Of a stretch of DNA of 64,000 nt, positions 38,345 through 40,299 are shown piece by piece. Each line of letters opens with the position of its first letter. Position 1 is the stretch's first letter. This DNA is from an uncultured Cytophagales bacterium (lineage in GTDB: Bacteria > Bacteroidota > Bacteroidia > Cytophagales > UBA9547): contig CAMFLX010000003.1 of the NCBI GenBank assembly GCA_945957555.1, positions 56,446 to 120,445 of the forward strand. The letters are read 5' to 3'. The translations under genes and the position numbers were made by a program. The notes below the pieces were generated by a model. That model was not told the origin of the DNA and did not search any database. It was given only the letters and a program-made list of their open reading frames with translations.

Positions 38345-38731
38345 ATGAATACTTGGACTGAAGAAGATTTTATTACTTATCTATATCATATTGTAGCGGA
38401 TGCTGACCTTGAGACTGGTGTGAAGGAAATAGCCGTTATTAAACATAGGGCATCGACAATTATTTCTAAATATCTAAACAATCCTACATATTCTTATGAA
38501 GCATCGCTAAAAAAGATTCAGGATACAGAAGGAGTAAGTTTGATTCAAGCTGAGGAGATCGTTAAGAAACTTATTCTTAAGTTTCAACTCCCAAAAGAGG
38601 TCAAGAATGCTATTTTTGAAGATATTAATGCCATTGCCCTTGCTGATGAGCGTCTTACAGTATCAGAGCAAGAAACCATTGGTTTTATCAAAAGGACACT
38701 TTTGGCCACGGAAATGCCACTGAGTTGGTAA
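38345..38731 (+). CDS. TerB-like small helical protein
   Basis: NAIALADERLTVSEQETIGFIKRTL resembles the TerB helix-turn 'A.ADG.ls..E...i..i'. Confidence 0.5.
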   Translation: MNTWTEEDFITYLYHIVADADLETGVKEIAVIKHRASTIISKYLNNPTYSYEASLKKIQDTEGVSLIQAEEIVKKLILKFQLPKEVKNAIFEDINAIALADERLTVSEQETIGFIKRTLLATEMPLSW

Positions 38732-38890: not shown

Positions 38891-40225
38891 ATGAATCAAA
38901 TTAACTACAGTTACGAAATCCTCATCATTGACGGGTTGGGTAAGTCAGAAATTACAACTGTAAAGTCATTGTCGAAGGCCTTGGGTTATTCGGAGAAACT
39001 TTGGGAAGATGCAGAGATCAAAGATGGTGCAAACGAGGCATTCATAGAAGACAAGATTCAAGGATTAAGTCTTCAAGTAAACAAAGTTGGTGATGGGTCT
39101 GATGTAAGTAAAAATGCACATGAAGCTGCTTTTTTATTGAGTGTCAAAAGCCCCAATTTTGAGAAAATTGAACCTTTTAGATTTAAACTCTTGCAACACA
39201 TTATTCACAAGCTTGGTTTTGTGAGTGCTAGAGTGGTTTCAGATACTGTTTCAGAAAAAATAGCAAATAGCATATATCCACATATTAAGGATGTTGAAAA
39301 TGCATTTAGAAAGAACTTAGTGAAGACCTTTACACAGAAAGAAGGCTTTTCTTGGCTCGATGTCGTAGCTCCCAAATCTGTTCTTGAAGGGATACAACAA
39401 AGGAAGGCCGTAACGAATGTTTTTGATGGATTGATCGATACCAGTGCATCATTCACTAATTTTTCAGATCTTACAGAAATGCTTTCGAAGGTGTCATATG
39501 CAGATATTAGCTTTAAGACTAATTGGGCGGCACTCTCAGAACTAAGAAATAAAGTGCTGAGCTATGCACCATTGGTAAAAGAAGATTATAATCTTGCTCA
39601 CAAGGTATCCAAAGAACTATTGAGCATAATTGCACAAAACGATGGTGCTCTGCGCTACGTTAAAAGTGCTCCTGTCGAGCCACTAAAGGCTAGTGTATCG
39701 ATTTCATCAAAAGCAGTTACGCCAGAGTCTGTATCGGTACCAGTTCCAGAGCCTATCATTGAAGTTAAAAAAGAGACACCTCCACCCGTTGAGAAAAAAC
39801 CTGTCGTAAATTTAGTGTTTACAGAGGAACCAGAAGTTAAGAAGGAACCTGTATTGGCAAGTGTGCCATCGGAAGTAGGTGCAAGTAATAGTAATGGGGA
39901 ACAAAAAGTTACAGAGCAGGTAAGTTCTAAAATCTCGAGTGCTGTCTTAGAAGAAGACAAACCTTACGTGAGCAAAGCTACTACTGGAGCATTTGACATT
40001 ATCTCAGAGCAGGTATTTCTTTCCGAACTCAAAGAATTTGAACGTTCGCAGAATGGTCAATTGGTAAATCTTAAATTGTTTGTGACCCACGTATTGGGTG
40101 ATAAAGGATACTCGTCTGGTCCAGCATACTCACTTTCAAAATCATTGAGTGAAAGTGGTAAAGTTACTGTATATGACACCAAAGACAATGTGGGGCTGAT
40201 TGTAAAAGCCATACGTTCTAACTAG
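38891..40225 (+). CDS. Swt1-like HEPN-domain protein with degenerate active site, disordered linker and C-terminal winged-helix-like domain
   Basis: SIYPHIKDVENAFRKNLVKTFTQKEGFSWLD…FTNFSDLTEMLSK…NWAALSELRNKVLSYAPLVKEDYNLA matches the Swt1-HEPN pattern; RNKVLS in place of RNxxxH. Confidence 0.55.
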   Translation: MNQINYSYEILIIDGLGKSEITTVKSLSKALGYSEKLWEDAEIKDGANEAFIEDKIQGLSLQVNKVGDGSDVSKNAHEAAFLLSVKSPNFEKIEPFRFKLLQHIIHKLGFVSARVVSDTVSEKIANSIYPHIKDVENAFRKNLVKTFTQKEGFSWLDVVAPKSVLEGIQQRKAVTNVFDGLIDTSASFTNFSDLTEMLSKVSYADISFKTNWAALSELRNKVLSYAPLVKEDYNLAHKVSKELLSIIAQNDGALRYVKSAPVEPLKASVSISSKAVTPESVSVPVPEPIIEVKKETPPPVEKKPVVNLVFTEEPEVKKEPVLASVPSEVGASNSNGEQKVTEQVSSKISSAVLEEDKPYVSKATTGAFDIISEQVFLSELKEFERSQNGQLVNLKLFVTHVLGDKGYSSGPAYSLSKSLSESGKVTVYDTKDNVGLIVKAIRSN

Positions 40226-40266: not shown

Positions 40267-40299
40267 ACCTCCAAGGTTTAGACTTTGGAGGTTTTTTTG
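40267..40299 (+). terminator. Rho-independent terminator
   Basis: ACCTCCAA-N10-TTGGAGGTTTTTTT. Confidence 0.85.

Follow-up and report, generated by a model that had tools for sequence, protein, structure and literature searches.

A probably nuclease-dead HEPN domain between largely retained flanking domains in a Cytophagales protein

In a window of 64,000 nucleotides, the whole stretch of DNA analysed here, we found a gene on the + strand (38891..40225; 444 aa from an ATG, uninterrupted by stops) whose product probably derives from a three-domain RNase of the Swt1/Abi2 type, is nuclease-dead and would act, if it acts at all, by binding. The frame, whose features all lie on the same strand, encodes in order an alpha+beta domain, a degenerate Swt1/Abi2-type HEPN domain, a disordered linker and a winged-helix-like domain. 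Its ancestor would have been an RNase with an N-terminal alpha+beta domain, a HEPN domain of this type and a winged-helix-like C-terminus, encoded by a stand-alone gene as in the closest relatives. Judged by sequence, the catalytic His has since become Ser and the HEPN domain has lost a segment of 40 residues together with many otherwise fixed residues, with the flanking domains mostly kept. RNA cutting would thereby have been lost, and, less certainly, the protein may have been kept for a role of its flanking domains in recognising a ligand, a nucleic acid or a partner, the HEPN remnant perhaps serving as a dimerisation scaffold and the whole being a regulator without catalytic activity or a decoy for active members of the family. 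The intact frame, a host-like codon usage in each region and a terminator-like hairpin of its own argue for this explanation. The gene offers a testable case of how nuclease activity is lost from a probable suicide RNase while parts with a possible sensing or aiming role are retained.

Taken alone, the protein has no significant match in Pfam, NCBIfam or PHROG, and PADLOC gives only a weak match to PDC-M34B (E 0.0012), so that the HEPN assignment rests on relatives. A HEPN profile built from relatives only, the window protein being left out, matched it with 93-98 bits over aa 114-249, against 13.7 bits at most in 1000 shuffles. The match falls into two stretches, aa 114-201 and 202-249, which follow each other directly in the protein but are separated by 40 skipped positions of the profile; the second half alone (aa 203-258) reached 26.9 bits vs 7.2 for shuffles. 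Several relatives match Pfam HEPN_Swt1 (PF18731), L034, L022 and L029 exceeding the Pfam cut-off. Made through its kin in this way, the assignment appears sound, and by this indirect profile homology we regard the protein as a HEPN_Swt1 (Abi2-Swt1 group) homologue, but one that falls outside the active RNase class, given RNKVLS where the catalytic R-x4-6-H is expected. The original prediction had likewise proposed a Swt1-type HEPN, at about residues 92-245; the homology stands, with bounds at aa 114-250 (39230..39640). That reading had overlooked that aa 1-113 form a separate alpha+beta domain, that about 40 residues are deleted directly before the motif and that the C-terminal domain is a module that recurs on a PIN_8 nuclease.

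In the Swt1-like HEPN group (Abi2/Swt1; Anantharaman et al. 2013) the catalytic motif is only partly conserved, the eukaryotic Swt1 HEPN itself has been called inactive, and non-catalytic HEPN domains (MtlR, Swt1), thought to bind RNA, form a recognised category (PMC3710099). Dead HEPN domains as such are already known; the window protein is a variant with a deletion and retained flanking domains. Its likeness to Swt1-like HEPN (PF18731), shown through the relatives, is that of HEPN homology; it differs in lacking the His and about 40 residues, and in that its HEPN domain is flanked by uncharacterised alpha+beta and winged-helix-like domains, not by a PIN domain. The non-catalytic HEPN repressor MtlR, a motif-less HEPN proposed to bind RNA, offers a functional comparison only: no sequence match to it was found, its domain order is another, and the window gene lies outside a mannitol operon.

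The remnant of the catalytic motif, RNKVLS (39545..39562, aa 219-224), reads as originally predicted, with R219 encoded at 39545-39547 and Ser at the His position, aa 224 (39560-39562). On either side of the motif the window protein aligns in register with the relatives-only profile ('RnkvaHnnlltkkdle' in the profile, 'RNKVLSYAPLVKEDYN' in the window), so the loss of the His is not a misalignment. Orthologues retaining the motif, with a local misalignment here, had been named as grounds for refutation; orthologues do retain it, but not because of a misalignment. R-x4-H is kept in 24 of the 25 relatives with a readable motif helix, the exception being L041, a distant 23-bit match (a further match, L073, stops before the motif and is outside these 25); the loss of a His that relatives keep is real. 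R219 and N220 are retained. No other R-x4-6-H occurs in the HEPN domain, the only other one in the protein being RFKLLQH (aa 97-103), inside the N-terminal alpha+beta domain.

The deletion lies between aa 201 and 202 (39493..39494), where profile positions 90-129 have no counterpart and where about 40 residues present in all long-form (close) relatives are absent. The spacing from F to R is 28 residues in the window protein, 63-72 in the relatives and 35 in the compact PDC-M34B proteins. Because compact HEPN_Swt1 proteins have a shorter spacing, most of the missing segment is a family insert; that it is a family-specific insert only was rejected in part, since the window protein falls 7 residues short of even the compact HEPN_Swt1 core and lacks the N-W/Y-x2-3-F element (W-x2-F in the compact forms) that long forms and compact proteins both have. 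In the tree a 100/100 split separates the long from the compact forms and places the window protein among the former, its position there not being settled, and a deletion is therefore the simpler reading. Such a deletion would make catalysis less likely still, and a non-catalytic protein is well supported by the altered sequence.

Relatives are rare in Bacteroidota. Among 391 genomes of the order, the search returned 5 others at E up to 0.01, including L006, which we rejected as kin since its match is a TonB-like linker, and among 396 genomes of the phylum relatives turned up in 7 others. Searched with the alignment, GTDB yielded three loci, in Thermoflexibacter ruber, a Cytophagaceae MAG and Nonlabens ulvanivorans. 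The proteins of these three and of genus g156 are stand-alone and align with the window protein over the full length, in the same domain order, at 29-34% identity, but none has lost R[NH]xVAH or the segment missing from the window protein. Scans of genome and viral collections with single-protein patterns found nothing, nor did a viral scan with the alignment; no phage match to the window protein was found, and plasmids gave one weak match, a Nostoc BREX-associated HEPN protein. None of the nine other genomes of the host family holds a relative, and no close relative appeared in the genomes searched. In the host genome we found no paralogue of the gene. As an active HEPN_Swt1 partner there, the only match (E 0.19) was weak and is no clear relative; it is a CBS protein with RNDVMH (L065:1408-2436, -), possibly a further HEPN protein of the same genome. 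In genus g156 the three-domain HEPN gene was found in six genomes (L066-L071) among varying, ordinary chromosomal neighbours, a setting unusual for a defence gene; the closest relatives are likewise solitary, with ordinary chromosomal genes alongside.

Conservation is uneven across the three domains. Where four relatives are invariant, the window protein keeps 9 of 11 positions in the N-terminal domain and 15 of 20 in the C-terminal domain but 23 of 52 in the HEPN domain, where 11 are deleted and 18 changed, whereas in leave-one-out controls each relative keeps 71-93% of the HEPN invariant positions (Fisher test, HEPN vs N plus C, p 0.006; p 0.08 without the deleted positions). The window branch takes up 0.17 of the tree length for the N-terminal domain, 0.38 for HEPN and 0.30 for the C-terminal domain; in 60 bootstraps each, HEPN and N-terminal shares do not overlap, and the overlap of HEPN with the C-terminal domain (0.13) makes that difference not significant. 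Among the intact orthologues of the six g156 genomes the HEPN domain is the most conserved (87% vs 74% and 77%), and dS greatly exceeds dN, as in the L066/L067 HEPN comparison (dN 0.007, dS 0.98), many of the other dS values being saturated. Best kept in these orthologues and worst kept in the window protein, the HEPN domain thus marks a reversed order of conservation, which fits early decay or a shift of selection away from the nuclease and towards the flanking domains.

Slow decay, in which the RNase was inactivated, the HEPN domain is drifting and the rest has not yet broken, is the main rival and in our judgement an unlikely one. It would agree with a single copy that is absent from the nine other family genomes, with a different gene content beside topB in two related genomes, and with relaxation of the HEPN domain and possibly, slightly, of the C-terminal domain too. 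Yet 444 codons have stayed open at 29-34% identity to the nearest relatives, several HEPN changes (His to Ser, an in-frame deletion, many fixed residues) have accumulated with no stop, the N-terminal domain is as conserved as in active relatives, and codon usage is coding-like throughout. Under the preferred reading of a nuclease-dead binding protein, the RNA-binding regulator originally proposed may be one option among several. More tentatively, and as a possibility rather than an expectation, a stably kept dead HEPN RNase may have been repurposed as a regulator or decoy by way of its N-terminal domain and a winged-helix module exchanged between HEPN and PIN nucleases; since no paralogue was found in the host genome, a decoy would lack a known target there.

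The gene stands alone, with no neighbour resembling a partner and no adjacent antitoxin gene of an MNT-HEPN or other toxin-antitoxin pair. A TerB-like gene (window 38345-38731, encoding 128 aa) lies 160 bp upstream of it and was rejected as a partner or antitoxin, as it is present in related genomes that lack the HEPN gene; several TerB-like paralogues occur in related genomes and one more in the host genome. The convergent neighbour on the other side is a gene that we take, from its sequence, to be topB (DNA topoisomerase). Other genes occupy the 3' side of topB in two related genomes, and the window gene is thus accessory. Between the convergent genes, 3' of the HEPN gene, lies an intrinsic-terminator-like hairpin with a T-run (40267..40292), an 11-pair stem followed by TTTTTTGTGT. 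Codon usage of all four protein regions resembles that of other window genes, as does G+C (0.387 vs 0.381).

This setting bears on the improbable alternative that the protein has kept RNase or toxin activity with an altered active site, or is toxic through RNA binding alone. Motif-less HEPN proteins have been reported as effective toxins (PMC3710099), and the retained R219 and N220 would suit such a reading, but the HEPN domain offers no substitute motif, the segment before the motif is deleted, no neighbour is antitoxin-like, and the TerB-like gene does without the window gene elsewhere.

For the flanking domains we turned to an AlphaFold model based on an alignment of four sequences (mean pLDDT 67, pTM 0.50), which the model of an intact relative resembles. 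The N-terminal domain (38891..39229, aa 1-113) is modelled as E-H-E-E-E-E-H-E with pLDDT mostly 75-94, and shares 26-40% identity with the same domain in four relatives. The HEPN region is modelled all-helical, as expected, although among the Foldseek matches listed a recognisable HEPN was absent even for the intact relative, both models resting on four sequences. A long linker followed by a compact C-terminal domain had been predicted and is borne out: the Pro/Glu/Val-rich linker (39641..39997, aa 251-369; shorter in most relatives) is predicted to be disordered, with pLDDT <50 over aa 259-368, and the C-terminal domain (39998..40222, aa 370-444), delimited by the model and by an alignment that includes the C-terminus of a PIN_8 nuclease, shows three helices (373-386, 394-404, 409-421) and two strands (425-432, 436-443) with pLDDT mostly 80-89. 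Foldseek against the PDB and a viral library yielded nothing with E of 0.001 or less; its weak neighbours include the PII-like SbtB and PadR, LmrR and TFE-alpha, all winged-helix ones at E >0.1, and these would belong to the N- and C-terminal domains, respectively, by size and fold class only. Sequence searches of the PDB with profiles of the whole protein and of the N- and C-terminal domains gave no credible match, and no Pfam model covers the outer domains of the three-domain architecture that the intact relatives define.

In fold class, the three helices and two-strand wing of the model agree with the winged-helix-like C-terminus first proposed. The last ~80 residues of a PIN_8 nuclease (L030:2173-3327, -) are the same domain as window aa 370-444, hinting at a module common to HEPN and PIN RNase classes, which may be a general targeting module for RNases. 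With 9 K/R and 8 D/E the domain is not basic, which leaves nucleic-acid binding by it unproven. The specific suggestion of a LOTUS/OST-HTH RNA-binding regulator, attractive for a small winged helix that also ends a PIN_8 nuclease, is highly improbable, as there is no Pfam OST-HTH match at E up to 10, the profile search of PDB sequences gives only weak PadR matches (E 0.23), and the winged helices among the 50 Foldseek matches listed are PadR, LmrR, TFE-alpha and alike, with no LOTUS domain among the PDB matches listed.

Distant kin were found in defence operons. The closest PADLOC candidate system is PDC-M34, a DUF5343 protein with a compact HEPN_Swt1 protein, two pairs of which we observed (L037:686-1902 and L039:1411-2648, the latter on the - strand). 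The first half of the HEPN domain matches PDC-M34B, more strongly in the relatives (E down to 2e-13) than in the window protein; in contrast to PDC-M34B proteins, which keep R-x4-H, the window protein has the extra N- and C-terminal domains, and its gene lies beside the TerB-like and topB-read genes rather than an M34A (DUF5343) neighbour. The Nostoc plasmid protein, a distant relative, is encoded between brxC and pglX in a BREX operon (L009:2743-3972), and backup HEPN RNases in BREX loci have already been described (PMC12839542). A further likely operon (L031:4675-11564, -) combines an Eco57I-type methylase (DUF7149/DUF7814), a HEPN_Swt1-like protein with RNKVMH and an OLD-like AAA ATPase. 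In three relatives (L022:6858-8162; L029:6184-7611, -; L072:844-2370, -) some 120 residues separate two R-x4-H motifs, of which the second falls within a HepT- or DUF4145-like stretch in two cases; by sequence all three are probable tandem HEPN proteins. In L040 (-), a HEPN-like stretch with RCKIAH is N-terminal on an apparent STAND-type NTPase with repeats.
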